DNA of 64,000 nucleotides from Comamonadaceae bacterium (lineage in GTDB: Bacteria > Pseudomonadota > Gammaproteobacteria > Burkholderiales > Burkholderiaceae_C). The DNA is taken from contig CANBWP010000005.1 of assembly GCA_947373185.1 (NCBI GenBank), forward strand, positions 1 through 64,000, read 5' to 3'. The notes under the pieces are model-generated. The model saw only the letters and a program-made list of their open reading frames with translations. It searched no databases and was not told the origin of the DNA. Shown here one piece after another: positions 20,163 through 63,195 of this stretch. Numbering within the stretch: the stretch's first letter is position 1; every line of letters starts with the position of its first letter. The position numbers and the translations under genes were made by a program.

Positions 20163-20182
20163 CATCGTCTGAGCGGACGATG
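20163..20182 (+). promoter_or_regulatory. Palindromic operator (strong copy)
   Basis: CATCGTCT-GAGC-GGACGATG is a 20-bp dyad with one mismatched pair. It lies 54 bp before the ATG at 20236, and CAATGA about 21 bp downstream is a possible -10 element. Its presence inside the MFS series suggests that the second and third transporters have their own promoter. Confidence 0.65.
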
Positions 20183-20235
20183 CAGGGAGGTCCTGCAACT
20201 GCACAATGACTGCTTCTCTTTCTAGGATTTGCAGC

Positions 20236-21597
20236 ATGTCTCAAACCCAGTCCGTCCCTCCCGCTCAGGGTGCGCATGGCGCTCAAGCCGCTCATGGCTG
20301 GCGCAGTCATTACACACTCGGACTGCTTTTGTTTGTGTACACCATGAGCTTCATTGATCGTCAGATCATGAGCATCCTCATGGAGCCCATCAAACAAGAA
20401 TTTCAAGTGTCAGACACGGCCATGGGCGTATTGAGCGGCTTGGCTTTTGCCTTGTTCTACAGTGCTTTGGCGGTCCCGTTTGGTCGCATTGCCGATCGCA
20501 CCAATCGACGCAACTTTGTGGCTTATTGCTGCGCCGCATGGAGTGCCATGACGGCTGTTTGCGGTTTGGCCGTCGGATTTTGGAGCCTGGCCTTTGCGCG
20601 CATGGGCGTTGCAGTAGGTGAAGCGGGTGGCGGTCCGCCCTCCATTTCCATGATTGCCGATCACTACCCCCCGCAGCAGCGGGGTCGGGCCATGAGTGTG
20701 TATTTGTTAGGCCCCCAATTGGGCATCTTGCTGGGCCTCACAACAGGCGGTTGGATTGCGCAGCACTACGGTTGGCGCGCGGCCTTTTTGTGGATGGCCA
20801 TGCCAGGCTTGGTGGCCGCCCTGTTGTTGCGTTTGTCTGGCGTTGAGCCCACACGCGGCCAGTGGCAGTCGAGTGACAATGCTTACGTTCAAGCGCCCGC
20901 AGAGCCTCTTGCCACACTGGTCCGTGATTTATGGGCATCGCCCGCATTCACGCGCATCACCCTAGCGTCCATTTTGATGGGCTTCACAGGCTACGGCATT
21001 GGCATTTGGACACCCGCATTTTTGGTACGCTCGCATGGCATGAGTCTGCAAGGCGCAGGCATTGTGATGGGGCTGCTCGGTGGTCTTGCAGCCGCTTTGG
21101 GGTCTTTGTTCAGCGGCTGGCTGTGCGACAAATTGTCGAAACGCGATATTCGTTGGCGCTTAGGCGTTCCCATGTTGGGCTGTTTTTTAGCACTCCCAGT
21201 GGGCCTTGCTTTTTTCATGTTGCCAACAGGTGGGGCTTGGCAATTGGGCAGCCTGAGCGTTCCCCATGCCATTGGTTTTTATGTCCTGTTTGGTTTCACC
21301 GCGGTGTGGTGGGCGGCCCCTGTGTATGCCTCACTGGCTGGCTTGATTGCACCGCACCGCAGAGCTTCAGGCTTGGCCTTGTTTAACTTGGGTTTGATTT
21401 TGTGCGGTGCGGGTTTAGGCCCCCTCATCATTGGCTCTCTAAGCGACCAGCTCATTCCTTGGTTTGGCAATGAAGCATTGCGCTGGTCATTGGCCACCAG
21501 CACTGGCATTTGTTTTCTGGGAGGCGCTTTGCTTTTTGCAACCGCCATGAAACCCTACGCCATTGAACAACCTTTGGCTGAAATTCGCGACCGTTGA
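20236..21597 (+). CDS. MFS transporter (second of three in tandem)
   Basis: 453 residues from ATG 20236, which has AGGA eight bases upstream. A start at 20206 is unlikely because it has no ribosome site. Twelve membrane segments, with the loop motif GRIADRTNRRN and GEAGGGPPSISMIADHYPP. The whole N-terminal half matches the preceding transporter almost word for word (SHYT-LLLFVYTMSFIDRQIM), but it carries a Gln/Ala/His-rich N-terminal extension. The retained operator in front of it suggests separate control of the duplicate. Confidence 0.87.
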   Translation: MSQTQSVPPAQGAHGAQAAHGWRSHYTLGLLLFVYTMSFIDRQIMSILMEPIKQEFQVSDTAMGVLSGLAFALFYSALAVPFGRIADRTNRRNFVAYCCAAWSAMTAVCGLAVGFWSLAFARMGVAVGEAGGGPPSISMIADHYPPQQRGRAMSVYLLGPQLGILLGLTTGGWIAQHYGWRAAFLWMAMPGLVAALLLRLSGVEPTRGQWQSSDNAYVQAPAEPLATLVRDLWASPAFTRITLASILMGFTGYGIGIWTPAFLVRSHGMSLQGAGIVMGLLGGLAAALGSLFSGWLCDKLSKRDIRWRLGVPMLGCFLALPVGLAFFMLPTGGAWQLGSLSVPHAIGFYVLFGFTAVWWAAPVYASLAGLIAPHRRASGLALFNLGLILCGAGLGPLIIGSLSDQLIPWFGNEALRWSLATSTGICFLGGALLFATAMKPYAIEQPLAEIRDR

Positions 21598-22905
21598 ATG
21601 AATTCTGAACAAGCTCCCATTCATTCCTCCAGTAGCACGTCCAACTACACGTTGTTCATTCTCACACTGTTGGCGGCTTTGGCGTTCATGGACAGGCAAA
21701 TTTTGTCTGTGGTGATTCAACCTGTCAAAACAGAATTCAACTTGAGCGATTTGCAAATTGGTTTGGTTACGGGGCTTGGCTTTGCACTGACCTTTGGCCT
21801 GCTGGGAGTACCCATGGGCAAATTGGCCGACAGACGCAATCGCAGAAGCCTGATTGCCTATGCCAGAGGTGTTGGTGGCTTGCTGGCTTTATTGGGCAGC
21901 CTGTCCATTGGTTTTCTGTCCCTCATGTTCACACGTTCCGGCGGCGCCATCAGCGATGCAGGCGGCACGCCAGCGTCCATGTCCATGCTGGCCGATTTGT
22001 TCCCGGCAGAAAACCGGTCACGCGCCATGAGCGTGCTCAGTGCTGGTGCCAGTTTGGGTGCCTTGATGGCCTTGGTGTTGGGCTCTTGGTTGGCGCAGCA
22101 TTTTGGCTGGCGCATTACTGTGGCGCTGATCGGTGGCGTCACCTTGCTAATGTCATTGCTGCTTCGCTATTCAGTGCCAGAGCCTGTGCGAATTCACACC
22201 ACAGTACCCGCTCAGACGCACCCAGAAGTGCAACAACGGGGTGCCGTCGCCGCCATTTGGGCTGAACCCTTTACCCGTTGGTCCATTTTGGGGGCGGCAT
22301 TTGCGTTGTTAGCGGGCTACTCTTTTGGCACCTGGAATTTTGCAATGATGATTCGTCACCATGATCTGAGCTTGCAGCAAGCGGGTTGGATTTCAGGCTC
22401 GTCTGCCTGCATGTCTTTGTTGGGTGGTTTGGCATCAGGTGCGTTAACTGACAAATTGGCCTTGCGAAATATTCGATGGCAATTGGGCGTCCCCGTGATG
22501 GGATTGGGCTTGGCGTATGTGTGCGGTGTCTCCTACCTCCTGATGCCTTCGGGCGCCCTCACGCAAGCGGTTCTGTCGGTCATGGTTTTTTCATTCTTTT
22601 TGCCGTGGTGGGCTGCGCCAACTTATGCCGCCATCAGTTTGGTCGTGCCCAGTCAACGCCGCGCCACGGCCAATGCCATGATGCTCATGGCAGGCGCCGT
22701 GGTGGGCAATGGCCTTGGCGCCATCTTGACGGGTTGGTTCAGCGACCTCTTGGCTGCACAATTTGGCGCCGACAGCTTGCGCTTGGCCCTTCTGGGCATG
22801 GTCTGCATGCTGATACCGGCCATGGCTTCTTTTTGGTTGGCCATGAAAGCTTATCCAGCTGCTTTTCATCGCATTTCAAAAAACATCACATCAAGCCATG
22901 ACTAA
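21598..22905 (+). CDS. MFS transporter (third of three in tandem)
   Basis: 435 residues. The ATG follows the preceding stop directly (TGAATG), so translation is almost certainly coupled. Twelve hydrophobic segments. FMDRQILSVVIQPVKTEF and GKLADRRNRRS place it in the same MFS group, but it is clearly more diverged than the first two, with SDAGGTPASMSMLADLFP in place of the GEAGG motif. A different substrate or direction is plausible. Confidence 0.87.
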   Translation: MNSEQAPIHSSSSTSNYTLFILTLLAALAFMDRQILSVVIQPVKTEFNLSDLQIGLVTGLGFALTFGLLGVPMGKLADRRNRRSLIAYARGVGGLLALLGSLSIGFLSLMFTRSGGAISDAGGTPASMSMLADLFPAENRSRAMSVLSAGASLGALMALVLGSWLAQHFGWRITVALIGGVTLLMSLLLRYSVPEPVRIHTTVPAQTHPEVQQRGAVAAIWAEPFTRWSILGAAFALLAGYSFGTWNFAMMIRHHDLSLQQAGWISGSSACMSLLGGLASGALTDKLALRNIRWQLGVPVMGLGLAYVCGVSYLLMPSGALTQAVLSVMVFSFFLPWWAAPTYAAISLVVPSQRRATANAMMLMAGAVVGNGLGAILTGWFSDLLAAQFGADSLRLALLGMVCMLIPAMASFWLAMKAYPAAFHRISKNITSSHD

Positions 22906-23602
22906 TTTCACTTCGTCCGAAAAAGCGTCATGGAAAATGATTTACTTGGCCAAGCGCAACCCGCAATTGGCCCCACACGAATTTGAACAAGCTTGGCGAG
23001 AGCATTCCGCCCTTGGGCGTCAATGTCGCAATGTTCAAGACAAAGTCTTGGGGGTGACGCAATGCACCAGTCTTCTTTCAATGGGCACACCCAAGCACTT
23101 AAATGGCATCTACGCTCAAGCCGATGGTGTGAACTTGCTGCAAATTCGCGACTTGCAAGTGGCCTCTGACATTTGGAATGATCCTGAAACACAGGCCATC
23201 ATGAAGCCCGATGAACTGCGTGTGTTTGACCGTTATGTGCGCGACTTTACCTTGGTAGCCCAAGAGGATGTGGTGGTCAATGCACCCGCAGGAAAAGCCG
23301 TGTTGATTGGATTCCTGACCGCTGTCGACCAACAATCAGAAGCCGCATTGCGACAAGCGATGCTGACTTCTTCAAATTGGAACGCAGGCCAGCGCTTGGT
23401 CTTGAACCGAGTTCAAACCGAACGCCCTGCGGGCTACAACTACGATGCCATTGTCGAGTGGTGGTTTGAGGACACGCCTCAACTGCTTGAACGATTGGGA
23501 GACATCGATGTGTCAGCGCAACTGCAAACCAAGATTGGGCCTTGGTGCGATTTGAAGACCTCAGTTGTCATGGCCACGCAAGTGACGCACCGACGTCCCT
23601 GA
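22898..23602 (+). CDS. EthD-like dimeric alpha-beta-barrel protein
   Basis: 234 residues, overlapping the end of the third transporter by 8 bp. The sequence looks like two ferredoxin-like repeats. WKMIYLAKRNPQLAPHEFEQAWREHS matches the start of EthD-domain proteins, and a second half from about residue 125 (GKAVLIGFLTAVDQQSEAAL) may repeat it. EthD-type proteins accompany oxidative degradation genes, but their chemistry is mostly unknown. Last gene before a convergent unit. Function beyond the fold is not assignable. Confidence 0.65.
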   Translation: MTNFTSSEKASWKMIYLAKRNPQLAPHEFEQAWREHSALGRQCRNVQDKVLGVTQCTSLLSMGTPKHLNGIYAQADGVNLLQIRDLQVASDIWNDPETQAIMKPDELRVFDRYVRDFTLVAQEDVVVNAPAGKAVLIGFLTAVDQQSEAALRQAMLTSSNWNAGQRLVLNRVQTERPAGYNYDAIVEWWFEDTPQLLERLGDIDVSAQLQTKIGPWCDLKTSVVMATQVTHRRP

Positions 23603-26148: not shown

Positions 26149-26166
26149 TACCTTATTTGGACGATT
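26149..26166 (+). promoter_or_regulatory. Palindromic operator copy, kshA / acyl-CoA synthetase gap (site 1)
   Basis: TACCTTATTTGGACGATT keeps the GGACGAT half and a degenerate left half. It is 66 bp upstream of the kshA start and 118 bp from the acyl-CoA synthetase start, 56 bp from site 2. Confidence 0.45.
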
Positions 26167-26204
26167 TTGAAAGAAAACCAAATTTTTCTGGCAAGGGTTT
26201 GCCT

Positions 26205-26222
26205 TAACTCGTTTGGACGATG
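26205..26222 (+). promoter_or_regulatory. Palindromic operator copy, kshA / acyl-CoA synthetase gap (site 2)
   Basis: TAACTCGTTTGGACGATG followed by ATTG, as at 63178. The site is 62 bp before the acyl-CoA synthetase ATG, the usual distance in this window. With site 1 it makes the only gap with two clear copies. Confidence 0.6.
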
Positions 26223-26283
26223 ATTGAATTGCACGAATCCAAGACGATTCCAGCCCTGAAGAACCTAATCGACTAGAGCCCGT

Positions 26284-27897
26284 ATGAAAAGAACCTTTAA
26301 CTTGGCCGACCTGTTTGAATTGGTCGCCGCCGCTGTGCCAGATCGAATCGCTTTCATTTGTGGTGAAAAGCGTCTGAGCTTCCGCGAACTCAATCAAAGA
26401 GCGAACCAAATTGCAAATGCTTTGAAGAATCGAGGCATTCAACGCGGCGACAACGTGGGCATCGAGTTGTTCAACTCCTCAGAGTACTTAGAAGCATTTC
26501 TGGCCTGCTGCAAAATTGGCGCAGCACCTGCCAATGTGAACTATCGGTATGTTGCCGACGAGTTGCATCACCTGCTTGATTCACTCCAACTCAAAGCCCA
26601 CTTTTACGATGTCAGCGTGGGTCAAGAGGTTCAAAAAGTAGCCTCAAAACTAAGTCATTTGAAGCTTTGCATTCAAACGGGCGACTCGCAAATCGGTGTG
26701 ACTGGTGCAGTGCACTATGACGATCTTTTGTCAACGGGCGATGCGCAGCACAGCGATGACGGCCGCAATGACAACGACCTGTATTTGCTGTGCACTGGCG
26801 GTACCACCGGGCTTCCCAAAGGTGTGGTCTGGCCACACAAATCTTTGTTCATGAGTGCGCTGGGTGGCGGCGGCATTTACTTCCAACGTCCGCCCATCGA
26901 AAAACCCGAAGACATTGGACCACTGGTCGCCAGCGCGCCACCCATGAGCTTCTTTGCCATTGCACCCATGATGCATGGTGCCGCCATGTGGGGAACCTTG
27001 ATCAGCTTGCTGGCAGGCCACGCTGTGGTGGTCAATGACCAACACCTCTTTGACCCTGAACACATTTTGGACATCACCGCGCGCGATCAAGTGAACATCA
27101 TCTCGATGGTGGGTGACGCCATGGCCTTGCCTTTGGTCAAAGCCCTTGAAGCGCACCCCGGCAGATGGGATTTAAGTCATTTGCGAGTGGTTGGCAACGG
27201 TGGTGCGCTGGTGTCTGCGCATGTGCAAGAGCGCTTGAAAGCGGCCATCCCGCACATTGCACTGTCCAACGGCATGGGCTCTTCCGAGACCGGCTTGATG
27301 GGCAGTGGTGACAAGCCCAGCAAAGGCGAAGGCTTCATGGTTTTGAAGGCCCGTCCCGACCTGGCGGTGATCAGTGAAAGCCTTCAAATTTTGACCACGC
27401 CAGGTGACACGGGTGTCTTGGCGCGCAGTGGCTACACGCCCGTGGCCTATTTTGGCGATGCCAAAAAGAGTGCCGAAGTTTTTGTCACCATTGAGAATCG
27501 ACTTTGGGTGTTGAGTGGCGATCACGCGCGCATTGATGAAGATGGCAACATCGTGATTTTGGGCCGTGGTTCGCAGTGCATTAACACGGGCGGCGAAAAA
27601 GTTTTCCCAGAAGAAGTGGAAGAAGCAGCTCGTCGTTATGCCGCGGTGGCCGATGTCTTGGTGGTCGGTTTAGCCGATGACCGTTGGGGACAAAAAGTGG
27701 TGGCCGTGGTGGAAGTTGCCAAAGACCAAAGCTTTGATCGCCAAGAATTTGATCGCATTTGCAGAGAGAAGTTGTCGGGCTACAAAGTGCCTAAAGCCGT
27801 GTTCATCGCATCACAGGTCAAACGCAGCCCTGCAGGCAAAGCAGACTACCGCTGGGCTGCCGGCTATGCCGCGCAAACTGCGCCTCTTGAAGGCTAA
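26284..27897 (+). CDS. Acyl-CoA synthetase (AMP-forming, FadD19-like)
   Basis: 537 residues of the ANL adenylating superfamily. The P-loop-like motif LLCTGGTTGLPKGVVWPHKS is near residue 180, the ATP/adenylate motif is SNGMGSSETGLMG, and LSGDHARIDEDGNIVILGR carries the hinge Asp. The C-terminal Lys is in RSPAGKADYRWA. It activates a carboxylic acid to its CoA ester. Within actinobacterial steroid genes the overall look is closest to FadD17/FadD19, which act on sterol side-chain acids, so a bile-acid or sterol C24/C26 acid is the likely substrate. Monocistronic, divergent from kshA. Confidence 0.88.
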   Translation: MKRTFNLADLFELVAAAVPDRIAFICGEKRLSFRELNQRANQIANALKNRGIQRGDNVGIELFNSSEYLEAFLACCKIGAAPANVNYRYVADELHHLLDSLQLKAHFYDVSVGQEVQKVASKLSHLKLCIQTGDSQIGVTGAVHYDDLLSTGDAQHSDDGRNDNDLYLLCTGGTTGLPKGVVWPHKSLFMSALGGGGIYFQRPPIEKPEDIGPLVASAPPMSFFAIAPMMHGAAMWGTLISLLAGHAVVVNDQHLFDPEHILDITARDQVNIISMVGDAMALPLVKALEAHPGRWDLSHLRVVGNGGALVSAHVQERLKAAIPHIALSNGMGSSETGLMGSGDKPSKGEGFMVLKARPDLAVISESLQILTTPGDTGVLARSGYTPVAYFGDAKKSAEVFVTIENRLWVLSGDHARIDEDGNIVILGRGSQCINTGGEKVFPEEVEEAARRYAAVADVLVVGLADDRWGQKVVAVVEVAKDQSFDRQEFDRICREKLSGYKVPKAVFIASQVKRSPAGKADYRWAAGYAAQTAPLEG

Positions 27898-27929: not shown

Positions 27930-28769
27930 TCAATCCGCCAATTGATGCGTTTTGATCAAGCCCTGAAGATCAATGAGCTGCGGTTTGCGCGTCAGCTCTG
28001 CCGCGCTTGCATGGCTCGCCAACCACAACAAACTGGCCGCAATGGCCTCAGGCGTTGTGGCGCCATAGCGTTGTGACAATTCAGCATCCAAACCCAGCGT
28101 GGCTTGGGCCGCCTCGGTGTTCACAAATCCAGGATTGACACTGAAAGCCACAACACCTGCATGGCCCCACTCGCGGTTGATGCAGCCCGCCAGTCGCCCC
28201 AAGCCCGCTTTGGAAGCGCCATACGCAAATCCCCAACCCCCTTGATTGGCAGCCATGGGCGGATCGTATTGCCCAGCGCCCGAGCCCATATTGATGATCT
28301 TGCCACCCCCCTGCGAGATCATGTGCGGCAACACTTTCTTGGCCATGTGAAAAGGCGCGACCACATTGCCCAACAAACTTCGCTGAAGCGCGTCATCGTT
28401 CAAATCCAACAACATGGCATTGACTTCGCGATCTTGGTACACGGCGTTGTTGATGAGCACATCGATTCGGCCAAAGTGTTTCAAGGCGGCTTCAATGGCC
28501 AAGTCCATCGAATGGGCGACCATCAAGTCCATGCTTTGCATGAAGACTTCAGCACCCGTTGCTTGGATGGCCTTGGCAGTCTCTGACAAGCTACCCTGCA
28601 AGAGCTGACCATCTGCATACCGCAACTGATGACTTTGTTCTTGCGCCGCTTGCAAAGTTCTGGCCGCAATGACCACGCGCCATCCGGCTTTGGCAAAAGC
28701 AATGGCCGTGGCCGCACCAATGCCGCGACTGGCGCCTGTGACAAATACGACGGGACTTGATGCAGTCAA
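27930..28769 (-). CDS. SDR-family oxidoreductase, translationally coupled to an MFS gene
   Basis: 279 residues if read from TTG 28769, where TTGA overlaps the stop of the transporter gene and AAGGA sits 6 bases upstream. An ATG at 28796 would add nine residues and a 31-bp overlap. The coenzyme motif is FVTGASRGIGAATAI, and the active site has NMGSGAGQYDP with the Tyr-Lys pair in AYGASKAGLG. It has a longer middle region than a minimal SDR, with the insertion QLRYADGQLLQGSL. Role in the pathway unknown. Coupling to a transporter suggests that its substrate is what the transporter carries. Confidence 0.85.
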   Translation of the reverse strand: MTASSPVVFVTGASRGIGAATAIAFAKAGWRVVIAARTLQAAQEQSHQLRYADGQLLQGSLSETAKAIQATGAEVFMQSMDLMVAHSMDLAIEAALKHFGRIDVLINNAVYQDREVNAMLLDLNDDALQRSLLGNVVAPFHMAKKVLPHMISQGGGKIINMGSGAGQYDPPMAANQGGWGFAYGASKAGLGRLAGCINREWGHAGVVAFSVNPGFVNTEAAQATLGLDAELSQRYGATTPEAIAASLLWLASHASAAELTRKPQLIDLQGLIKTHQLAD

Positions 28770-30112
28770 TTGCTTTCCTTGTACATGCGATGCCATTGAT
28801 CACGATAGGCCTGCAAAGACAGGGCCAACAAAATGGCGGTGGGAATCAACAGCAACATGACACATACCAAGGACCAGCGCAGTGCTTGCGCACCCAAACT
28901 GGGGGTGAGTAAATCGCTGATAAACCCTGTGAGCAAAGGTCCCATGCCAATGCCAAACAAGGTGATGAAAAAATTCAGCATCGCCGCAGCAACACCGCGC
29001 TCAGATGAGTGCGCCATGTGACTGATGGCGCTGTAAGACAAGGAGGGCCACCAGCTTGCAAAAAAACCAAAGGCAATGGCAAAGACCATGGCGTGAGGGA
29101 TTTTCAAAACACCCACAGCCCAGAAACCTTCCGCGGGCCATAACAAAAATGCCATGACGCACGGCACCGAAATCAGAACCCCCAGCATGGGCAAGCCCAC
29201 TTGCCAACGCACATCGCGTTGCACCAAACGATCACACAACCAGCCACTGAACAAGCCACCCACCAGCGCACCCAAGCCACTGGCAAATCCAAACATCAAA
29301 CCTGCATGCGCCAAACTCAAGGCGTGCGTTCTCACCAAAAAACTGGGCGTCCATACACCATAGGCATACCCTGCAAGTCCGGCAACGCCACACGCAAATG
29401 CCACCAGTCTGAACGACTTGATTTTCATCAAGCGCATCACCTGCTGCCAAAGAGGCTCTGAAGGCTGAGTGGATGCGGGCACTTCAGGGGCAGGGTCAAA
29501 GCCACCGCGCACAGGCTCTCTGATCAGCCACCACACCAGCAAACCCAAGACCATGCCCGGCACACCAAAAAACAAGAAAGTGCTGCGCCAACCATATTGC
29601 TGCGCAATCCAGCCGCCCAAAGACAAACCAATCACCACGGCCAAATTGGGCCCCGTCATGAACAAACTGATGACCGTTGAGCGTTGCTTGGGCGGGTACA
29701 AATCAGAGACCAAGGAGATGGAAGGCGCCATGCCACCCGCCTCGCCAATGGCCACCGACATGCGCGACAACAGCAATTGCCAAAACTGTCCAGCAAAGCC
29801 GCACGCTACCGTGGCCAAACTCCAAAGCGAGCAACAAACGGCCACAATCATGCGGCGGTTGTATTTGTCTGCCAACTTGCCTACGGGCACACCCAAGGCT
29901 GCATAAAAGAGTCCAAACGCCAAACCACTGAGCAAACCCATTTGGGTGTCTGTGGCACCAAACTCTCTTTTGATGGGCTCCATCAAAATGGCAATGACCT
30001 GCCGATCAATGACAGAAAAAATGTAGACCAATGCCAAGAGCGCTAAGCTCAAATGCGTTCGCCAGGTCACTGCGGGTGGGGTTGATGGGTTCATGGCCGC
30101 ATGTTCACGCAT
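28766..30112 (-). CDS. MFS transporter
   Basis: 448 residues, or 442 from the ATG at 30094. Twelve hydrophobic segments, VIDRQVIAILMEPIKREF, GKLADKYNRRM and GEAGGMAPSISLVSDLYPP place it in the same group as the transporters at 18840 and 20236, but it is not a recent copy. First gene of a two-gene minus-strand unit with the SDR. An operator copy lies 16-33 bp upstream of the first ATG. If that copy sits at an activator position, the start at 30094 fits better. Confidence 0.87.
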   Translation of the reverse strand: MREHAAMNPSTPPAVTWRTHLSLALLALVYIFSVIDRQVIAILMEPIKREFGATDTQMGLLSGLAFGLFYAALGVPVGKLADKYNRRMIVAVCCSLWSLATVACGFAGQFWQLLLSRMSVAIGEAGGMAPSISLVSDLYPPKQRSTVISLFMTGPNLAVVIGLSLGGWIAQQYGWRSTFLFFGVPGMVLGLLVWWLIREPVRGGFDPAPEVPASTQPSEPLWQQVMRLMKIKSFRLVAFACGVAGLAGYAYGVWTPSFLVRTHALSLAHAGLMFGFASGLGALVGGLFSGWLCDRLVQRDVRWQVGLPMLGVLISVPCVMAFLLWPAEGFWAVGVLKIPHAMVFAIAFGFFASWWPSLSYSAISHMAHSSERGVAAAMLNFFITLFGIGMGPLLTGFISDLLTPSLGAQALRWSLVCVMLLLIPTAILLALSLQAYRDQWHRMYKESN

Positions 30113-30127: not shown

Positions 30128-30145
30128 CATCGTCTTTTTAGACTA
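30128..30145 (-). promoter_or_regulatory. Palindromic operator copy between the MFS and aldehyde dehydrogenase genes
   Basis: On the minus strand TAGTCT-AAAA-AGACGATG. It is 70 bp before the aldehyde dehydrogenase start (+) and 16 bp before the first possible start of the MFS gene (-). Both halves are present, and the AGACGATG right half is also seen at 53047. Confidence 0.55.
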
Positions 30146-30214
30146 AGCGGCACATGGCATAGCTTGATAGCATGACATTTTGGCCATGCAGGCCAGCGCC
30201 CTTTAGGAGATTCC

Positions 30215-31648
30215 ATGGCTGCTTCAACCTCTGACGAACAAGCCATTCAAGCCTTGCCTAAGTTATTGGCCGCGCAACAAGCTGCCTTTAGAGCGGAGGG
30301 CCCCGTGAGTGTGGCCACTCGAAAAGACCGCTTGCAACGCGTGATTGACATGCTGGTGAAACACTGCGACCCCTTTTGCGCCGCCATGGAGGCTGACTTT
30401 GGCGGCCGGTCACCCGTCTTCTCCATGATGAACGATGTAGCAGGTTCTTTAGGTTCGTTGAAACACGCCAGAGACCATCTCGAAACATGGGCGCAAGATC
30501 AATCTCGTCCCAGCGTGGCACCCTTCGACAACTTTGGCGCCACTGCATGGGTCAAGTACCAACCCAAAGGTGTGGTGGGCATCATTGGCACGTGGAACGC
30601 CCCTCTTTTCACCTTGCTGTCGCCATTGTCCAGCGTGTTTGCAGCGGGCAATCGCGCGGTCTTAAAGCCATCCGAGATTGCCCCTCGCACCGCAGCACTG
30701 CTGCAAGAAACAGTGGCAGAATTTTTCAAACCTGAAGAATTGACCGTGGTGCTGGGCGGTCCTGCGGTGGCCGCAGAATTTTCCAAACAAGCTTGGAACC
30801 ACTTGGTCTTCACGGGGGCCACCAGTGTCGGCAAACTCATCATGAAAGCAGCCTCAGACAATCTGGTGCCTGTCACTTTAGAGTTGGGTGGCAAGTCGCC
30901 CGTCATCATTGGCACGGGCGCCGACATTGCCAATGCTGCTGAAAGAATTGCGGTGGGCAAAAGCGCCAACTCAGGCCAGTTGTGTGTGTCGCCCGACGTA
31001 GTCTGGGTTCACGACTCGCAGGCAGAGGCATTGCTCTCGGCCATTCAATCTGTTTACTCAGGCCTGTTTCCAAGCACCGCCAACAACCCCGATGTCACGC
31101 CCATCGTGAACGACAGGCACTTCCAACGCGTCGAGTCGTATGTGAAAGATGCCAGTGTCAAAGGAGCCCGCGTTGTGGTGGCCGGTGATGAAAACGCGGC
31201 AGACCGACGTTTGCCGCTTCGCATGGTGGTGAACCCCCACTCAGACAGCGAGATTTCCCAGTTCGAAATTTTTGGCCCTGCGTTGGTGGTTCGAACCTAC
31301 CAATCATTGCAACAAGCCGTCGCCGACATCAATGCAGGCGAGCGACCCCTTGCGCTTTATTATTTCGGTACCGACAGTGCAGAGCAAGCTTGGGTGTTAG
31401 ATCACACTTTGTCGGGCGGTGTTTCCATCAACGACGTGGTGATGCACCCCGCCTTGCACGATGCCCCATTTGGTGGCGTTGGCGCCTCTGGCATGGGTCA
31501 CTACCATGGCCATGAAGGCTTCTTAGAATTCAGCCATGCTCGCAGTGTGTACAGCGCTGGCGGTCACGACCCCCGACGCGAATGGGGCATGTTGCCGCCC
31601 TATTCCGAGCAATTTGCACAAATGATTCGCGGCGCCATCACGCCCTGA
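30215..31648 (+). CDS. Aldehyde dehydrogenase (paralogue of the gene at 13410)
   Basis: 477 residues. The nucleotide site has GVVGIIGTWNAP and FTGATSVGKLI, the Glu is in LELGGKSP and the Cys in SGQLCVSPD. The C-terminal part (HDAPFGGVGASGMGHYHGHEGF) matches the family. It shares layout, length and several blocks with the aldehyde dehydrogenase at 13410, so the two are duplicates that now sit under different promoters. Monocistronic, with an mRNA start region carrying an operator copy. Confidence 0.9.
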   Translation: MAASTSDEQAIQALPKLLAAQQAAFRAEGPVSVATRKDRLQRVIDMLVKHCDPFCAAMEADFGGRSPVFSMMNDVAGSLGSLKHARDHLETWAQDQSRPSVAPFDNFGATAWVKYQPKGVVGIIGTWNAPLFTLLSPLSSVFAAGNRAVLKPSEIAPRTAALLQETVAEFFKPEELTVVLGGPAVAAEFSKQAWNHLVFTGATSVGKLIMKAASDNLVPVTLELGGKSPVIIGTGADIANAAERIAVGKSANSGQLCVSPDVVWVHDSQAEALLSAIQSVYSGLFPSTANNPDVTPIVNDRHFQRVESYVKDASVKGARVVVAGDENAADRRLPLRMVVNPHSDSEISQFEIFGPALVVRTYQSLQQAVADINAGERPLALYYFGTDSAEQAWVLDHTLSGGVSINDVVMHPALHDAPFGGVGASGMGHYHGHEGFLEFSHARSVYSAGGHDPRREWGMLPPYSEQFAQMIRGAITP

Positions 31649-32174: not shown

Positions 32175-32238
32175 GGGTGATCCATCCAGTAGGTTGACAT
32201 CTTAGGGCATCAGCATAAATTGGCCACGCGGCCTGGAA

Positions 32239-32256
32239 CATCGTCCGTTTGCATCA
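32239..32256 (-). promoter_or_regulatory. Palindromic operator, one good half
   Basis: CATCGTCC-GTTT-GCATCA on the plus strand gives a perfect GGACGATG half when read towards the membrane-protein gene, 65 bp before its start. The other half is degraded. It is 66 bp before the SDR on the plus strand. Confidence 0.45.
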
Positions 32257-32321
32257 TTACAAAGTGGTCAAAGCCCTTGAGTATCTGGCTTCGATGATTC
32301 ACTGACAAGGCGCCCCTGACC

Positions 32322-33099: not shown

Positions 33100-35220
33100 T
33101 CAAACGGTGCGCCCTGCCCGATGACCTTCGTGCATGGCGCCTTCAATGTAGTTCACGCCCGCGCAGTCGCCAATGCGATGCAAAGGCACACCGCAATCGG
33201 CCAACTCTATGGCCACTGTATCGTCGGCTTCCGCGCCGATGGCCAACACCACAGAGTTGGCAGGCGTTTGTTGTGTGACGCCTTCTGCATCTTGCCAAAC
33301 CACATGGTTGGCTGTGATCTCTTGAACTTGCGCTTTCAAATGCAAAGTGCCATGCGACTTCACGACATCGAGCACGCGCCAGCGACGCACAATCGACAAC
33401 TCCCGACCCGCTTTGTCTGAAGGCTCTAACACCGTGACGTCGCGGCCTCGCGCCAATAAAAATTCAGCCAACTCAAGACCCACCAAGCCGCCGCCCACAA
33501 TGACGACTTTTTTGCCCAAGGGCATCCAGAGTTTGGACAAGCTTTGTAAAGCTTCTGCACTGTCGGTCACTTTCAACATGCCACCCGCTTTGAACATGGC
33601 ACGCTCTGCCAAATTCAATTTGGCTTTGGCCACTTCATCGGCACGGTCACCGGTCATGAGGCGACGAAGTTCATCGCCACTCCATACATGCTGTTGTTCA
33701 GCACCCGCAATGGCAGGCGCTTGGCGCTTGGCGCCTGTGGCCACCACGATGACAGCGGGCTTCAAAGCGGCCACGGATGTTTTGGAAACTTGCGCTGACA
33801 ACTTAACTTCAATGGGCAAGTTTTTCACTTGTTCCACCAAGTAATCCAGGAGCTTGCCGTTTTCTGGATAAGCCAATCCTGCAAAGAACAAGGTGCCACC
33901 TAAGCGGTCGCTACGCTCCAGCAAAGTCACCTTGTGGCCACGGATGGCCGCCACACGTGCTGCTTCCATGCCGGCAGGACCACCGCCCACAATGACCACA
34001 TGCTTAGGCATGACCGCAGGCGTGATGGGGTGTTCAAATTCGTGACCTGTTTGCGCGTTCACAGCACACTTCACGCGTCGGTTGACAAAAATTTCGCTGA
34101 CGCAGGCGTAGCAATAAATGCAAGGCCGAATGTCTTGCGGCCGGTTCTGAATCAACTTGATGGGAATCTCGGGATCGGCCAACATCTTGCGCGCCATGGC
34201 CACGAAATCCATTTCACCTTGGGCAATGGCTTTGGCAGCCACTTCGGGTTCAATGCGTCCCGCGGTGATCACTGGAATGTTCAAAACACCTTTGATGGCT
34301 GCCGCATTGGACATGTAGGCGCCAGGCTTTTGGGGAATGGGCGCTTCGGTAAACACCACGCCGCTGGTCAAGGTGGCATAGGCTGAAACACTGATGGCAT
34401 CTGCGCCAGCCGCTTCGCACATTTTGGCAGTGGCCATGGCATCGGCCAAGGTGATGCCGCCGGGTGTGTGGAGCTCTTCGCCATCCAAACGAATCCACAC
34501 GGGAAAATCAGCGCCCACACGTGCTTTCACAGCGCGCAAAGTTTCCAACAACAGGCGCGCGCGATTTTCTAAAGGGCCGCCATATTCGTCTTCACGTTGA
34601 TTGGAATAGGCTGACAAGAAACCCGCCAAAATGTACGTGTGAGCCCCATGCAATTCCACCGCATCAAAACCAGCTTGCTTGGCCCGCAAGGCAGCGGCTG
34701 CGAAGTACTCGATCATTTGCGCAATGTCAGCGTGGTCCATGACACGAATTCGAACAGGGTGAGGTCCGATGCCAATGAAATTTTTGAGCTCGTCTTGGGT
34801 GATGGCCGACATCATGTCGTTTTTCACCATCTTGGGCATGGAAGGCACCCACAGCTCACGGCCCTGTGCGCGGTCTAGCGCTGCTGTCTTACCGCCGTGC
34901 TGCAATTGCATGGCAATCTTGGCGCCGTGTCGATGCACTCTGGCCGCCACTTGCGACAAACCTGGAATGAAGTCGTCACGTGACACACCCACTTGGTAAG
35001 GCTCACCTGTCCCGTGCGGAAAAGCCACCGAACAAACGCCCATGGTGAGCAGGCCTGCGCCGCCTTTGGCCCGCTCTTCGTAGTAAGCTTGAATTCGCTC
35101 GCCGCAAGTGCCGTCTGTTTCGGCAAAATTAGAGCCCATGGGCGACATGAAAATTCTGTTGCGAATTTCCAATTGACCAATGCGGCCAGGTTGAAGCAGC
35201 GGTTGAAAAGGATTGCTCAT
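33100..35220 (-). CDS. NADH:flavin oxidoreductase with 4Fe-4S and FAD domains (2-enoate reductase / BaiCD-like)
   Basis: 706 residues from ATG 35220 (GGAG upstream). A further 28 in-frame residues before it are unlikely. An old-yellow-enzyme barrel (about 1-360) with [20 protein letters not shown] is followed by the iron-sulfur cysteines [12 protein letters not shown] and KCAVN and a pyridine-nucleotide-disulfide part ([35 protein letters not shown]). Enzymes of this build reduce enoates and, in gut bacteria (BaiCD/BaiH), the delta-4 double bond of 3-oxo bile acids. A delta-4 or delta-1 steroid reduction here is therefore conceivable. Monocistronic, divergent from hsdA. Confidence 0.85.
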
Positions 35221-35277
35221 GGGGCTCCAAAATGAGAAGTTTTCAGGTTCCCATTTTGCAACCTGCTTCAAAATTGA

Positions 35278-35297
35278 CATCGTCCATTCGGACGCTG
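35278..35297 (-). promoter_or_regulatory. Palindromic operator (strong copy), flavoenzyme / hsdA gap
   Basis: CATCGTCC-ATTC-GGACGCTG. Read on the minus strand the perfect GGACGATG half faces the flavoenzyme gene, 58 bp from its ATG. It is 92 bp from hsdA. Six of the eight right-half bases complete the dyad. Confidence 0.6.
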
Positions 35298-35310
35298 ACG
35301 CCAAACATCA

Positions 35311-35361
35311 AATGTCAGACATTAAGCTTAAGCATTCACAAGCTCAATTCCAACTTGGAAT
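35311..35361. promoter_or_regulatory. Three short perfect palindromes upstream of hsdA
   Basis: AATGTC-A-GACATT (35311-35323), TTAAGCTTAA (35322-35331) and ATTCCAA-C-TTGGAAT (35347-35361) lie in series in the last 80 bases before hsdA, between the general operator and the ribosome site AGGAG. Known hsdA regulation in C. testosteroni uses palindromic operators and repressors, so these may be hsdA-specific control sites. Confidence 0.45.
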
Positions 35362-36162: not shown

Positions 36163-36218
36163 CTGCGTGCTGATGGGGTTCTGACGCAGCGCCATTTTGG
36201 CGGGCCCTGCTCGCCGAT

Positions 36219-36236
36219 TAGTCTCATTGGACGATG
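36219..36236 (+). promoter_or_regulatory. Palindromic operator (consensus copy)
   Basis: TAGTCT-CATT-GGACGATG followed by GTTG, 51 bp before the SDR start at 36287. TATGCT 20 bp downstream is a good -10 candidate, which puts the dyad centre near -42. Confidence 0.65.
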
Positions 36237-36286
36237 GTTGAAATTCTCCGCTTGCCTATGCTTAGGTCATCAACAAGGAGCTGAGG

Positions 36287-37021
36287 ATGAGACTCAATCA
36301 AAAAGTAGCGCTGGTCACAGGTGCAGGTCAAGGCATGGGACGTGCCATCGCACAACGTTTTGCCGCAGAAGGCGCCATTGTGGTGGCCTTGGACATCAAT
36401 TTGGCAGCCGCCGAAGAGACCCTCAAAAATCACCCCGGTCAAAGCATCGCCCGCAGTTTGAATGTGGCCGACAGCGCCGCTGTGGCCGCTTTGGTCGATG
36501 AGGTGGTGGCCAAGTTTGGCCGTGTGGATGTGCTGGTGAACAACGCGGGCATTGGCTCGGTCGATGCCTTTGCCGACATTCCCGATGAAACTTGGGCACG
36601 CGTGCTCAATGTCAACTTGAACGGCGCTTTTTATTGCGCCCGTCAAACTGTTCGCGCCATGCAAAAAACGAGCACCCGCGGCGCCATCATCAATGTGGCC
36701 AGCACGGCTGCCGCATCGGGCGATGGCCCAGCCCACTACTGCGCCTCCAAAGCAGCCCTCATGGGTTTGACCCGCAGCATGGCCAAAGAATTGGCGTCAC
36801 AAGGCATTCGCGTCAACACCTTGGTGCCCGGCCCTACCAACACCCCCATGATGCAAAGCATTCCCCAAGAATGGACCGATGCCATCATCAAAGGTGTGCC
36901 GATGGGCCGCATGGCAGAGCCTGAAGACATTGCCGCCGTGGCCCTGTTTTTGGCCAGCGATGACAGCGGATTTGTCACAGGCCAAAACGTGGCCGTGAAT
37001 GGTGGTAGCGCGTTTCTTTAA
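36287..37021 (+). CDS. SDR-family oxidoreductase (FabG-like)
   Basis: 244 residues, minimal SDR. GAGQGMGRAIAQRF, ALDIN (Asp after the second strand, favouring NAD), NNAG, the catalytic Ser in NVASTAAAS, and YCASKAALMG carry all landmarks. First of four closely spaced genes (SDR, SDR, SnoaL-like, OYE-type reductase; gaps of 11, 17 and 0 bp) under the operator at 36219. A hydroxysteroid or hydroxyacyl-CoA substrate is inferred. Confidence 0.88.
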   Translation: MRLNQKVALVTGAGQGMGRAIAQRFAAEGAIVVALDINLAAAEETLKNHPGQSIARSLNVADSAAVAALVDEVVAKFGRVDVLVNNAGIGSVDAFADIPDETWARVLNVNLNGAFYCARQTVRAMQKTSTRGAIINVASTAAASGDGPAHYCASKAALMGLTRSMAKELASQGIRVNTLVPGPTNTPMMQSIPQEWTDAIIKGVPMGRMAEPEDIAAVALFLASDDSGFVTGQNVAVNGGSAFL

Positions 37022-39518: not shown

Positions 39519-39567
39519 GTTTTCGCTCTTGAGAACAGGCCTGATCTTGCTCAAGCGGCGAAATGTT

Positions 39568-39585
39568 TAGTCTCAACGGACGATG
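39568..39585 (+). promoter_or_regulatory. Palindromic operator (consensus copy) before the main ring-cleavage run
   Basis: TAGTCT-CAAC-GGACGATG, 70 bp before the extradiol dioxygenase ATG. AAATCT 22 bp downstream may be the -10. It probably drives the 13-gene run to 53022, because no other copy was seen within that run. Confidence 0.65.
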
Positions 39586-39654
39586 CTTCAGCCCCCCTGT
39601 TTCAACAAAATCTCAGCATGTGTCGCTAATTGTTGAAAGCTGGGTGAACCAATC

Positions 39655-53046: not shown

Positions 53047-53066
53047 TATCGTCCAAGCAGACGATG
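53047..53066 (+). promoter_or_regulatory. Palindromic operator (near-perfect dyad) before ipdF
   Basis: TATCGTCC-AAGC-AGACGATG, 20 bp with only two imperfect pairs, 55 bp before the ipdF ATG. It separates the ipdF unit from the acyl-CoA dehydrogenase run despite a gap of only 99 bp. Confidence 0.65.
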
Positions 53067-53121
53067 CCCTTTGAAGCCGTTTTGCGCATCATGGGCGCTA
53101 TCCCATGACACTGGTTTTCCC

Positions 53122-55683: not shown

Positions 55684-56847
55684 ATGCCAGACAAAAAATC
55701 CATGAATCGCACCGGGATCTCCATGACTCAGGAGTTCCTGAGCCATATTTTGGGTGCCATTTACGATGCGGCGCTGGATGAGGCGGGCTGGGTCAGTTGC
55801 CTAGAGACCATTCGAATTGGGTTTGAAGGCAACTACGCTTCTCTGATTGTCAGAACCGAAACCACCGAAGACATTGGTTTGATCGTCTCTGCCGGCATCA
55901 ACCAGTCCAACCTTGACCCTGGCAATCCTTACATTGCCATGAGCCCTTTCACGGGCATGGTGCCTGATCAAATTGTGACCATCGCAGATGTCATCTCAGA
56001 GCGTGAATGGCGAAACTCAGATTACTACCAGAGTTACTGCAAACCCCAGGGCGTTTTCCATGTCTTGGCGGCAGACATCTCGACACGCAATGGTGGCGTG
56101 TACGGCCTTCGCATCACGCGGCCCGAAGACGCACCCGCTTTTACCAAGGCAGAAATTGATTTTTGCCAACTGCTGATTCCGCACATCAAACGTGCCTTGA
56201 ACTTGCACCTGTCGATCAACGACGATCGCAAAGTCAGCTCCTTGTACAGCCAAGCCATGGCGCAACTGATGGTGGGCGTGGTCATCTTGGACCAAGACCG
56301 AGAGGTGCTGGAATGCAACCCCGCTGCCACCGCCATTTTGGAATCTCAGGATGGCCTGCGCGTGGTGTCCAAGCAGCTTGAAGCGGCATACACCAACGAC
56401 AACAAAAAGTTACAAGCGCTCATTCAAGATGCCTTGGTCAAGAAAGTCGTCACCAAAGCTTCGCTGAACCAAGCCACATCCATCACGCGACCTTCTGGCC
56501 GTTTGGCGTGGGGCCTGATTGTTCAGCCCATCTCTTCTGACCAATGGACCGAAGGCAAGCAACGCCCCAGCGTGGCCATCTTCCTGCGTGACACCGAAGG
56601 GCGCGTCGACCCGCCAGTGCGTTTGGCCCAAGAGTTATTCCACTTGACGCCTGCTGAAACAGCCCTGGCCATTCAATTGGCCAATGGTTTGTCGCTCGAA
56701 GACGCCTCCGAAGTGCTGAACATTCGCCGCAACACCGCGCGCGCCCATTTGCGGTCCATCTTCTCCAAAACTGGCGTGCGCCGCCAAACTGAATTGGTTC
56801 GAATTTTCCTCAACAGCGTGGCCTGGTTGAGCGAAACCAACGATTGA
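55684..56847 (+). CDS. LuxR-type transcriptional regulator, TeiR-like candidate
   Basis: 387 residues, or 374 from ATG 55723. Other ATGs lie at 55702 and 55723, and the true start is unclear. The C-terminal 60 residues (FHLTPAETALAIQLANGLSLEDASEVLNIRRNTARAHLRSIFSKTGVRRQTELVR) are a LuxR/NarL HTH with the conserved TPAE and LxxIFxKTGVxRQ pattern. The N-terminal 300 residues look like GAF/PAS-type ligand domains, not a receiver or an acyl-homoserine-lactone domain. Steroid degradation in C. testosteroni is activated by the LuxR-family protein TeiR. This is the only large regulator in the window and is the best candidate to bind the repeated dyad. Confidence 0.82.
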   Translation: MPDKKSMNRTGISMTQEFLSHILGAIYDAALDEAGWVSCLETIRIGFEGNYASLIVRTETTEDIGLIVSAGINQSNLDPGNPYIAMSPFTGMVPDQIVTIADVISEREWRNSDYYQSYCKPQGVFHVLAADISTRNGGVYGLRITRPEDAPAFTKAEIDFCQLLIPHIKRALNLHLSINDDRKVSSLYSQAMAQLMVGVVILDQDREVLECNPAATAILESQDGLRVVSKQLEAAYTNDNKKLQALIQDALVKKVVTKASLNQATSITRPSGRLAWGLIVQPISSDQWTEGKQRPSVAIFLRDTEGRVDPPVRLAQELFHLTPAETALAIQLANGLSLEDASEVLNIRRNTARAHLRSIFSKTGVRRQTELVRIFLNSVAWLSETND

Positions 56848-56877
56848 AGCTGGCGCATTGCGCCCAAATTTCATTTT

Positions 56878-56895
56878 TAGTCTACTTGGACGATG
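56878..56895 (+). promoter_or_regulatory. Palindromic operator (consensus copy) before the Ltp2-like gene
   Basis: TAGTCT-ACTT-GGACGATG followed by GTTG, 56 bp before the ATG at 56951 and 31 bp after the regulator stop. CAATAG about 24 bp downstream may be the -10. Confidence 0.65.
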
Positions 56896-56950
56896 GTTGT
56901 GCCAGCCACTCTGCGCACAATAGCCCACAACGCTTTCGCCAAAGGACATC

Positions 56951-58165
56951 ATGGGACTCTCAGGAAAAGCTGCCGTTGTCGGCGCAGCACAATACAAACC
57001 AGAAAAGTACAGTACCGCGCCGCGCATGTTTCACCTGGAACAAGTGGCCGATTTGGCCACCCAGGCCTTGGAAGACGCAGGCTTGTCATTGGCCGACGTC
57101 GATGGCCTCATCACCTTGGGCCCACAGTTTCACGAAGCGGGCATGTTCATTCCCGCCATGGCCGGGGAATACTTGGGCACGCGTCTGAATTTTGCAGAAG
57201 TGGTTGACTTGGGTGGCGCCAGTTCTGTGGGCATGGTGTGGCGCGCGGCAGCGGCCATTGAACTGGGCATGTGCGATACCGTGGTGTGCGTCATTCCAGC
57301 GCGCATGGCGCCCACCGCACCCCATGACGACCACATTGCGGAAGTCATGAAAGCCTCACGCTTTGGCGGTCACAGCACACGCTTTGGCGCCCCCGAAGCT
57401 GAGATGGACTTGCCATACGGCCACATGGCCCAAAACACCGGCTACGCCATGATTGCGCAGCGCTACGCGTCCGTGCATGGTTATGACGCTGCGGCCTTGG
57501 CACGCATTGCTGTGGACCAACGCTTCAACGCTTGCCACAACCCACAAGCCATGTTTTACGGTCAGCCCATCACCGTGGACGACGTGCTGGCATCGCGCAT
57601 GGTGGCCGAGCCTTTGCGCATGCTCGAAATTGTGATGCCCGTTGCCGGAGGTGGCGCTGTGGTGGTCACGCGCGATGACAATCTAAAGCGTTGCAAACAT
57701 CGCGGTGTGCGCGTCATTGGTTGCGGCGAACATGTTCAATCCAAATCGCCCACTTATGCGGCCGACATGCTGGCCACCCCCATTGGTCCCGCTTCGCAAC
57801 GTGCATTTGCCATGGCCAATTTAAAACCGGCCGACATGCACATGGCGCAAATTTACGACTGCTACACCATCACCGTCATGCTAACGTTGGAAGATGCAGG
57901 TTTCTGCAAAAAAGGTGAAGGTCTGCAATTTTTGCGCGATCACAATTTCACCTTCCAAGGCGACTTCCCCATGAACACCCACGGTGGTCAACTCAGCTTT
58001 GGCCAGACTGGCAGCGCGGGCGGTATGACGCAAGTGATCGAGGCCATCCACCAAATTCAAGGCCGCGCCGATGCGCGCCAATTGAAACGCCACGACCTGG
58101 CCTATGTCTCTGGCACCGGCGGTGTTATGAGTGAGCAAGGCGCTTTGATTTTGCAGGGAGCATGA
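56951..58165 (+). CDS. SCP2/thiolase-family steroid side-chain aldolase (Ltp2-like)
   Basis: 404 residues of the lipid-transfer/thiolase group. It lacks the classical thiolase Cys context (LGGASSVGMVWRAAAAIELG where CxGxG would be) but retains NTHGGQLSFGQTGSAGG near the C-terminus and a Tyr-rich MAQIYDCYTITVM where Ltp2 has its catalytic Tyr. Ltp2 performs a retro-aldol cleavage of 17-hydroxy-C22 steroid CoA, releasing propionyl-CoA and androstenedione, and needs the DUF35 domain of its partner. The next gene supplies exactly a DUF35 domain. AAGGA precedes the start. Ordinary thiolase activity looks unlikely. Confidence 0.82.
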   Translation: MGLSGKAAVVGAAQYKPEKYSTAPRMFHLEQVADLATQALEDAGLSLADVDGLITLGPQFHEAGMFIPAMAGEYLGTRLNFAEVVDLGGASSVGMVWRAAAAIELGMCDTVVCVIPARMAPTAPHDDHIAEVMKASRFGGHSTRFGAPEAEMDLPYGHMAQNTGYAMIAQRYASVHGYDAAALARIAVDQRFNACHNPQAMFYGQPITVDDVLASRMVAEPLRMLEIVMPVAGGGAVVVTRDDNLKRCKHRGVRVIGCGEHVQSKSPTYAADMLATPIGPASQRAFAMANLKPADMHMAQIYDCYTITVMLTLEDAGFCKKGEGLQFLRDHNFTFQGDFPMNTHGGQLSFGQTGSAGGMTQVIEAIHQIQGRADARQLKRHDLAYVSGTGGVMSEQGALILQGA

Positions 58166-63053: not shown

Positions 63054-63121
63054 GTCTTTTCCTGATCTAAGCACTCAGCTTGAATCGAGCCGAGCGAAAT
63101 GAAATCCTTCACTCGGACTAG

Positions 63122-63139
63122 ATTCGTCCATTCACCCTC
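63122..63139 (-). promoter_or_regulatory. Weak operator-like half-site before hsaB
   Basis: ATTCGTCC on the plus strand gives GGACGAAT towards hsaB, about 69 bp from its start. The left half is poor. It may be the hsaB counterpart of the clear copy at 63178 in the same divergent gap. Confidence 0.3.
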
Positions 63140-63177
63140 AAATGCGGCGCCATACTGGCGCATGGGCTCCCATGTTT

Positions 63178-63195
63178 TAGTCTGATTGGACGATG
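63178..63195 (+). promoter_or_regulatory. Palindromic operator (consensus copy) before hsaA
   Basis: TAGTCT-GATT-GGACGATG followed by ATTG. TATCTG about 23 bp downstream fits a -10 element. The start codon is 100 bp downstream, the longest leader among the clear copies. Confidence 0.62.

Follow-up and report, generated by a model that had tools for sequence, protein, structure and literature searches.

The window analysed here comprises bases 1-64,000 of contig CANBWP010000005.1 (C5; 109,396 bp, or 3.9% of a 2.79-Mb genome) from a Comamonadaceae bacterium, and it carries an island of steroid-catabolism genes in which a 20-bp dyad recurs at promoters. Among its open reading frames (ORFs) are a tesB/hsaC-like dioxygenase operon, a kshA counterpart, genes for short-chain dehydrogenases/reductases (SDRs) and MFS transporters and, at 55684..56847 on the plus strand, a tesR/teiR-like gene whose product combines a predicted GAF-like and PAS-like sensor region with a GerE (LuxR-type) helix-turn-helix (HTH). 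An earlier note on this DNA had listed 14 copies of the dyad and proposed that it marks the promoters of the island as a regulon-wide operator. This proposal was supported by window shuffles, by the concentration of the dyad within the genome, by its conservation and by the -10 element attached to it. The dyad is real, island-wide and widely conserved, and has the predicted geometry of a class II operator, most probably that of TesR.

Dyad sites and their concentration in the island

When the 14 coordinates were looked up in the sequence, eight sites proved firm and that at 267 good, those at 26205 and 32239 were marginal, 26149 was weak, and 13202 and 63122 failed. The consensus is CATCGTCY-N4-RGACGATG in a 20-bp palindromic register, the outer half often being shortened to TAGTC. 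Oriented towards plus-strand genes, firm dyads stand at 20163..20182 (CATCGTCTGAGCGGACGATG; -10 element CACAAT at 20202-20207, 19 bp downstream) before an MFS transporter gene with a likely start at 20236; at 36217..36236 (ATTAGTCTCATTGGACGATG; TATGCT, 36257-36262) before the SDR gene at 36287; at 39566..39585 (TTTAGTCTCAACGGACGATG; CAAAAT, 39606-39611) before the tesB/hsaC-like dioxygenase operon at 39655; at 53047..53066 (TATCGTCCAAGCAGACGATG; CATCAT, 53087-53092) at the head of a unit that runs from an SDR gene (likely start 53122) through MaoC and thiolase genes to tesR; at 56876..56895 (TTTAGTCTACTTGGACGATG; CACAAT, 56916-56921) before the thiolase-like gene at 56951; and at 63176..63195 (TTTAGTCTGATTGGACGATG; GAATAT, 63216-63221) before an hsaA-like gene with its ATG at 63295. 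The name hsaA is the label of the earlier note; on partial sequence, the product matches Pfam Acyl-CoA_dh_N.

Two firm dyads lie between divergent genes and have a -10 element on either side. The first, CATCGTCTTTTTAGACTAAG (30128..30147), has TAGCAT at 30168-30173 (20 bp) towards the aldehyde dehydrogenase gene at 30215 and GAACAT at 30101-30106 (21 bp) towards an MFS gene (28766-30112, minus strand). The predicted transcription start of that MFS gene coincides with an internal ATG at 30094, and the transcript is possibly leaderless. The second, CATCGTCCATTCGGACGCTG (35278..35297), has GACATT at 35318-35323 (20 bp) towards the SDR gene at 35389 and CAAAAT at 35253-35258 (19 bp) towards a flavin mononucleotide (FMN)-oxidoreductase gene (33100-35304, minus strand; likely start 35220). 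The good dyad, ACTCGTCTTAACGGACTATG (265..284, minus strand; 267 in the earlier note), has CAAAAT at 238-243 (21 bp) and faces a small ORF at 3..155 on the minus strand. This ORF behind dyad 265, which is cut by the contig end, has a TonB-like N-terminus by eye and no Pfam match.

The dyad promoters also correct start codons, as the ORF starts at 53071, 20206 and 35304 collide with them and the likely true starts are 53122, 20236 and 35220, respectively. The earlier note had placed the start codon 51-70 bp from the dyad end; this held for eight of the ten plus-strand genes, with 20206 and 53071 re-started at 20236 and 53122, but not for 35389 (92 bp), and the 100 bp claimed for the hsaA-like gene at 63295 was correct.

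A first dyad matrix was built from the eight firm sites (20163, 30128, 35278, 36217, 39566, 53047, 56876 and 63176), whose own dyad scores are therefore in-sample, and a score combining dyad and -10 element was used with spacing penalties set by hand. On bases 1-104000 of C5, 21 positions reached a combined score of at least 10, compared with 2 in the reversed sequence. The marginal sites each have one good half-site. At 26203..26222 (plus strand; 26205 in the earlier note), before the acyl-CoA synthetase gene at 26284, the proximal half GGACGATG is good and the distal half poor, with GACGAT at 26243-26248; at 32239..32258 the half-site CATCGTCC is flanked by GAGTAT (32279-32284) towards the SDR gene at 32322 and by TATGCT (32212-32217) on the other side. 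Neither site is significant alone, since the best combined scores (12.2 for 26203 and 11.4 for 32239) fall inside the reversed-sequence control (maximum 12.9). The best-scoring orientation of 32239 is minus, away from the SDR gene. Orthologues of that SDR gene are preceded by good dyads in two loci, while no dyad of at least 14 bits was found before the orthologue in C. testosteroni NFYY023. At 26149 the dyad itself scores poorly (-3.2) and the -10 element facing kshA is good (combined score 2.4, rank 42), and 13202 and 63122 ranked only 178 and 122 by combined score.

In the window, TAGTCT-N4-GGACGATG occurs exactly four times (36219, 39568, 56878 and 63178) and 13 times with at most three mismatches, against 1.95 expected, a count that none of 100 shuffles reached. 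The fuller form given in the earlier note, CATCGTCC-N4-GGACGATG, has no exact copy, although versions with at most three mismatches stand at 20163, 35278 and 53047 (0.26 expected). Across the whole genome, all four exact matches to the TAGTCT-N4 form and seven of the eight with at most one mismatch lie on C5 (binomial 1e-9), the sole match elsewhere being C1:128294. The palindrome with at most three mismatches occurs 87 times in the genome, 12 of them on C5 as compared to 3.4 expected by length. The dyad was not among the 20 families listed from a direct-repeat search that yielded 26.

According to the earlier note, the proposal would be refuted by a matrix that hits random intergenic sites throughout the genome equally often. 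This was tested with a promoter model, R1, of 48 columns trained on 98 foreign sites (100 were listed; L102:2701 and L171:7989 were dropped by hand), among which 20 symmetric sites had their orientation picked partly by their -10 element. With 150 of 762 first-look candidates scored, R1 gave 16 matches in the own genome at E<=10; the scan is not exhaustive, and two sites on C5, 265 and 86166, are missing from the matches listed. The window contained all six matches at E<=0.05, and the 109-kb contig C5 accounted for 11 of the 13 at E<=0.25, the first two elsewhere being C20:23935 and C15:8811. The proposal was not refuted.

Promoter geometry and conservation at other tesR loci

Sites from public tesR loci, from the own contig and from fetched stretches of family genomes were pooled (146 in all) and reduced to 127 non-redundant sites by a filter of 70% ungapped identity over 160 bp, after which near relatives, among them L100 and L101, remained. 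Half-site asymmetry alone, with the flank not consulted, oriented 94 of the 127. In these 94 sites a -10 box emerged at 21-26 bp past the dyad (A in 70% at 22, A in 57% at 25 and T in 66% at 26), the columns outside the box held at most 0.22 bit each out to 55 bp downstream, and no -35 consensus was found. The -10 element lies 19-21 bp downstream of the dyad rather than at the 20-24 bp of the earlier note, whose placing of the dyad near -42 was borne out by the fixed 20-bp spacing: with the start taken 7 bp after the -10 element, the dyad centre falls at -42.5.

For the -10 element, a matrix was trained on 82 foreign sites, for which it is in-sample, the spacing table included. L100 and L101, which are near-identical to the window, and the own sites were excluded from training, and the out-of-sample tests are those on own-genome and Pseudomonas sites only. 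On the better side, seven of the eight core window dyads had a box of more than 2 bits at a spacing of exactly 20 bp (7e-7 when either side may count; background 95% quantile, 1.8 bits), and the eighth, 20163, has CACAAT at 19 bp. Seven of ten Pseudomonas loci, which are related to each other, carry a weaker dyad with GAAGAT at exactly 20 bp (six of type TCTAGTCCATCTGAACGATG and one CCTAGTCCATGTAGAGGATG); a search for exact-arm palindromes in the ten loci found only arms common to at most four of them. Judged by the -10 spacing, a dyad of about 20 bp centred near -42.5 stands in place of a -35 box, and the predicted promoter geometry is that of LuxR-type class II activation.

To assess conservation, the eight-site window matrix was applied to 80 public TesR loci, the best 80 of 367 found by TesR alignment. 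It gave 106 matches of at least 16 bits, compared with a mean of 1.24 for permuted matrices (60 of 200 column-permuted palindromic matrices were run); these matches were counted before any redundancy filter and are not independent, because near relatives are among the loci. A dyad of this strength was present in 57 of the 80 loci, and each of the four identity bands showed the excess, including the one at 45-47% (34 matches vs 0.30). Of the 127 pooled sites, 107 are followed within 450 bp by the start of a gene homologous to one in the window, with own sites and weak homologues counted. The genes most concerned, with the window counted, are the SDR gene before tesR (27 loci), the aldehyde dehydrogenase gene 30215 (11), SDR 35389 (8), the thiolase-like gene 56951 (7) and tesB (6). 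Four of the 127 overlap sequence with homology to a window protein: two where that homology is weak (32-37%), 35278, where the window start was placed too far upstream, and L117:10615, which is clearly within tesR. In a 146-kb stretch of C. testosteroni NFYY023, 10 of the 11 dyads of at least 14 bits lie outside homologues of window genes. An operator defined in this way would predict regulon members from sequence in other TesR-bearing proteobacteria.

TesR as the candidate binder

With Pfam cut-offs of 1e-3 to 1e-8, under which weak HTHs could be hidden, TesR was the only one of 48 window ORFs scanned with a DNA-binding domain, and no TetR domain was found in any of them. The C-terminal HTH matches GerE (PF00196) at E=6.1e-5 and is near-invariant at 38% overall identity, being strongly conserved in 46 homologues. 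A predicted model (pLDDT 74, pTM 0.46) contains a GAF-like domain, a long helix, a PAS-like domain and the HTH, and its fold matches include phytochrome-type sensors and LuxR-type proteins; it lends weak support to a sensor and DNA binder of GAF-PAS-HTH type. A PDB sequence search with the TesR profile gave no match at E<=0.01. TesR is 64% identical to its homologue at the C. testosteroni NFYY023 locus, where the order SDR-MaoC-thiolase-tesR is kept, and 97%, 96% and 87% identical to the TesR of three metagenome-assembled contigs, the third labelled Limnohabitans, so that the source genome probably lies close to Limnohabitans. Comamonas loci L139, L142-L145 and L147 carry a second TesR homologue (53-58% identical to that of the window), with a dyad some 230-330 bp upstream of its matched region.

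We compared the distribution of TesR, TesB and the dyad across 299 genomes of the family, some of which are the same as named loci (for example, G115 = L122). Homologues of at least 55% identity were found in 8 of the 298 other genomes and a ninth at 40%, giving, with the own genome, 10 that were taken as TesR-positive (40% identity or more across almost the full length); any match at E<=1e-3 was present in 149 of 299, mostly distant. Counts of palindromes with at most one mismatch per genome discriminated poorly and were replaced by exact matches and by the promoter model; the length of open frames through exact palindromes was uninformative in GC-rich DNA. The exact palindrome occurs in 5 of the 10 TesR-positive genomes and in 7 of the 289 others (Fisher 9e-6). 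TesB (E<=1e-60) was found in eight family genomes, the own included, and all eight have TesR and a dyad with -10 element before tesB; a TesB-positive, TesR-negative genome did not occur among them. Outside the family, G313 and G441 (TesB 42-43%; TesR best E 0.0015 or none) have no dyad within about 1.5 kb of tesB, and G618 (TesR 37%) has a dyad and -10 element adjoining it. With R1, for which 150 candidates were scored per genome and the matches are those listed, the best E-values in the nine further TesR-positive genomes were 8.8e-6 to 1.6e-3, partly in-sample since these genomes gave R1 training sites. Among 19 TesR-negative genomes hand-picked from the 289, one gave no match, 16 gave 0.007 or weaker, and G242 and G234 gave 3.3e-4 and 0.0011; the G234 site has no homologue of a window protein nearby. 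In three genomes of the same genus neither TesR (E<=1e-3) nor TesB (E<=1e-60) found a match, so the steroid island is accessory there.

The co-occurrence of TesR, TesB and the dyad, together with the near-invariant DNA-binding region, links TesR to the dyad. It is very likely that the dyad is the operator of TesR/TeiR, through which this LuxR-type steroid regulator would activate the catabolic pathway and its own operon. The computation shows the dyad itself, its concentration and conservation, the fixed -10 element and the co-occurrence with TesR; TesR as binder, the nature of the ligand, the positions of the transcription starts and a positive mode of control are inferred. A steroid or steroid-derived metabolite would switch on a TesR dimer via the GAF-like/PAS-like sensor region, and the dimer would bind CATCGTCY-N4-RGACGATG, or the asymmetric TAGTCY-N4-RGACGATG, centred at -42.5. 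Because the proximal half-site occupies the -35 position, sigma-70 RNA polymerase would be brought by the bound dimer to the -10 element, which lies at a fixed distance of 20 (19-21) bp downstream, as in class II activation. Dyad 53047, at the head of the unit that ends in tesR, would provide positive feedback (predicted autoregulation), and the symmetric dyads between divergent genes (30128 and 35278) may serve both promoters. Such a docking site for TesR would show how bacteria turn on steroid breakdown.

Several observations weigh against this interpretation. Loose palindromes are common, 75 of the 87 with at most three mismatches lying off C5, and one with at most one mismatch is present at least once in 203 of the 299 family genomes. 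Of the 80 TesR loci, 23 have no dyad of at least 16 bits, some being short contigs but all 10 Pseudomonas loci being included. For 30128 and 35278 the box at 20 bp opposes the half-site asymmetry, on whose side the spacing is 21 and 19 bp, respectively. The GerE and PAS_8 scores of TesR are slightly below the Pfam cut-offs (23.0 bits for GerE, just under 23.5). The TesR-positive genome G084 lacks a palindrome with at most one mismatch and has asymmetric dyads only, and in G618 the 37% TesR and tesB are on different contigs. Under R1, the TesR-negative genomes G242 and G234 outscore TesR-positive G115 (0.0016). Finally, kshA is strongly induced by testosterone in Comamonas (log2 7.26 in the data given by PMC10637631), and its window counterpart has a weak dyad only.

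The genome G242 bears on whether the dyad belongs to another GerE/LuxR-type activator, for example of MalT/LAL type, encoded elsewhere, with TesR acting upstream or in parallel. This genome belongs to the same genus, lacks any TesR homologue at E<=1e-3, and has one exact palindrome with a good -10 element and three weaker dyads (L209:9951, 15658, 18737 and L210:4317; G242:C1 about 805-819 kb) around a beta-oxidation/CoA-transferase cluster that encodes a 919-aa MalT-TPR/GerE protein (L209:12849-15608, minus strand). Another GerE protein may thus use an almost identical word, and the dyad is not exclusive to TesR. However, no match to the MalT-type protein at E<=1e-10 was found in the own genome, so that it is not the binder here, nor in G004, G115, G151, G160 or G084, all of which bear dyads, and the dyads track TesR and TesB. 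We therefore consider a different activator of this kind unlikely.

Less probable again is a cascade in which TesR/TeiR, as a membrane kinase, activates some other protein that binds the dyad. Work cited in reviews assigns TeiR a polar membrane location and kinase activity, which stands against TesR as the direct binder. In contrast, TesR had no kinase family at E<=1e-3 in Pfam and no clear membrane-spanning segment (its 19-residue Kyte-Doolittle means peak at 1.5, with 1.1-1.8 in seven sampled homologues and 2.8 in an MFS control), and the near-invariant GerE HTH and the predicted GAF-PAS-HTH model (though its pTM is only 0.46) also tell against this alternative. A defined operator with fixed geometry makes the two descriptions of TesR/TeiR, as DNA-binding activator and as membrane kinase, directly testable.

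A repressor operator, relieved by a steroid metabolite, would also fit a place over the -35 region, and the actinobacterial steroid regulators KstR/KstR2 are repressors. This is nevertheless very improbable, as the dyads replace the -35 box, which would leave the promoters weak unaided, the spacing from dyad to -10 element is nearly constant (the spacing table being in-sample) and TesR/TeiR is described as a positive regulator. Although loose palindromes are common in these genomes, a dispersed repeat or chance similarity is scarcely credible in view of the window shuffles, the reversed-sequence control, the permuted matrices, the orthologous positions and the attached -10 element.

A wider proposal can be made, which we regard as doubtful. 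A single rigid activator promoter (dyad at -42.5, no -35, -10 at 20 bp) might be the common switch of steroid catabolism in beta- and gammaproteobacteria, where one symmetric dyad could drive a pair of divergent promoters at once; the word might also have been adopted by the unrelated MalT-type regulator in the TesR-less relative, and would hence be a transferable code and no single protein family's property.

Steroid response, related systems and neighbouring features

In C. testosteroni JLU460ET, apparent counterparts of the dyad-headed genes, matched by name and order, rose by log2 4.4-8.3 after 3 h of testosterone. The values given are 8.25 for hsaC/tesB, 7.63 for hsaA and 6.28 for hdhA (PMC10637631, Table 4), with 4.69 for the MFS gene, 4.52 for the neighbouring aldehyde dehydrogenase gene, 5.35 for the SDR gene, 5.57 for MaoC, 5.07 for the thiolase and 4.88 for tesR (PMC10637631). 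In the same data the SDR, MaoC, thiolase and tesR genes show no estradiol response, unlike the preceding gene (PMC10637631); the unit starts at the counterpart of dyad 53047, which fits a separate promoter for it. Two genes that lie between racemase and tesR are uninduced in JLU460ET (PMC10637631), and in the NFYY023 stretch no 14-bit dyad was found between the same flanking genes.

TesR/TeiR has been in print since 2004 and is described as a positive regulator, by some as a kinase (PMC6678751, PMC6895838, PMC8399759, PMC8700777, PMC13101464). No operator for it was found in the literature searched, which did not extend to primary TeiR work; as far as could be searched, a TesR-type operator as a defined site would be new, while ordinary in kind. 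PMC6895838 repeats a claim that restricts tesR-like genes to strains of C. testosteroni, which the TesR homologues in other family genomes and public loci contradict. Among the matches listed, distant homologues (at most 42% identity) also lie on plasmids or large replicons (19 records), with Vibrio alfacsensis, Caballeronia, Cupriavidus, Burkholderia and Sphingobium as hosts.

The C. testosteroni system has a homologous gene at the end of its tesB-tesR cluster and the dyad before several of the same genes; the operator and promoter geometry are added here, and the sequence does not bear out the description as a kinase. KstR/KstR2 of actinobacteria likewise exert regulon-wide control of steroid catabolism from palindromic operators, but they are TetR-type repressors. 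The lux-box consensus differs from that of the dyad, and CrbR, which acts on Pseudomonas acetate genes, belongs to the GerE family. Like the dyad, the lux box of LuxR-type quorum sensing is an imperfect dyad of about 20 bp, 42.5 bp before the start, with a LuxR-type HTH and positive feedback (PMC7585371), whereas here the sensor is GAF/PAS-like in the model and the targets are catabolic. Streptomyces PAS-LuxR regulators of the PimM type share the PAS domain, the LuxR-type HTH and a palindrome at the -35 region of pathway promoters, their 16-bp site being CTVGGGAWWTCCCBAG (PMC9774167); CATCGTCY-N4-RGACGATG differs from it, and the TesR model has an extra GAF-like domain. The ACTU motif of CrbR is also an imperfect inverted repeat required by an activator at catabolic promoters, but its half-site order and sequence differ and CrbR is a two-component response regulator (PMC5715377). 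The dyad promoters are candidate parts for steroid biosensors.

An ORF inside the steroid island, 16602-17648, has a Pfam match to APH (phosphotransferase). Beyond the window, further dyads with a good -10 element stand at C5:73337 (L023:9337, minus strand) and C5:86166 (L024:2166). The former lies before an enoyl-CoA hydratase gene, opposite SDR and ChsH2-like genes, and similar sites occur in G115 (2786511) and G127 (L224:13089); the latter precedes a gene for a TonB-dependent receptor.

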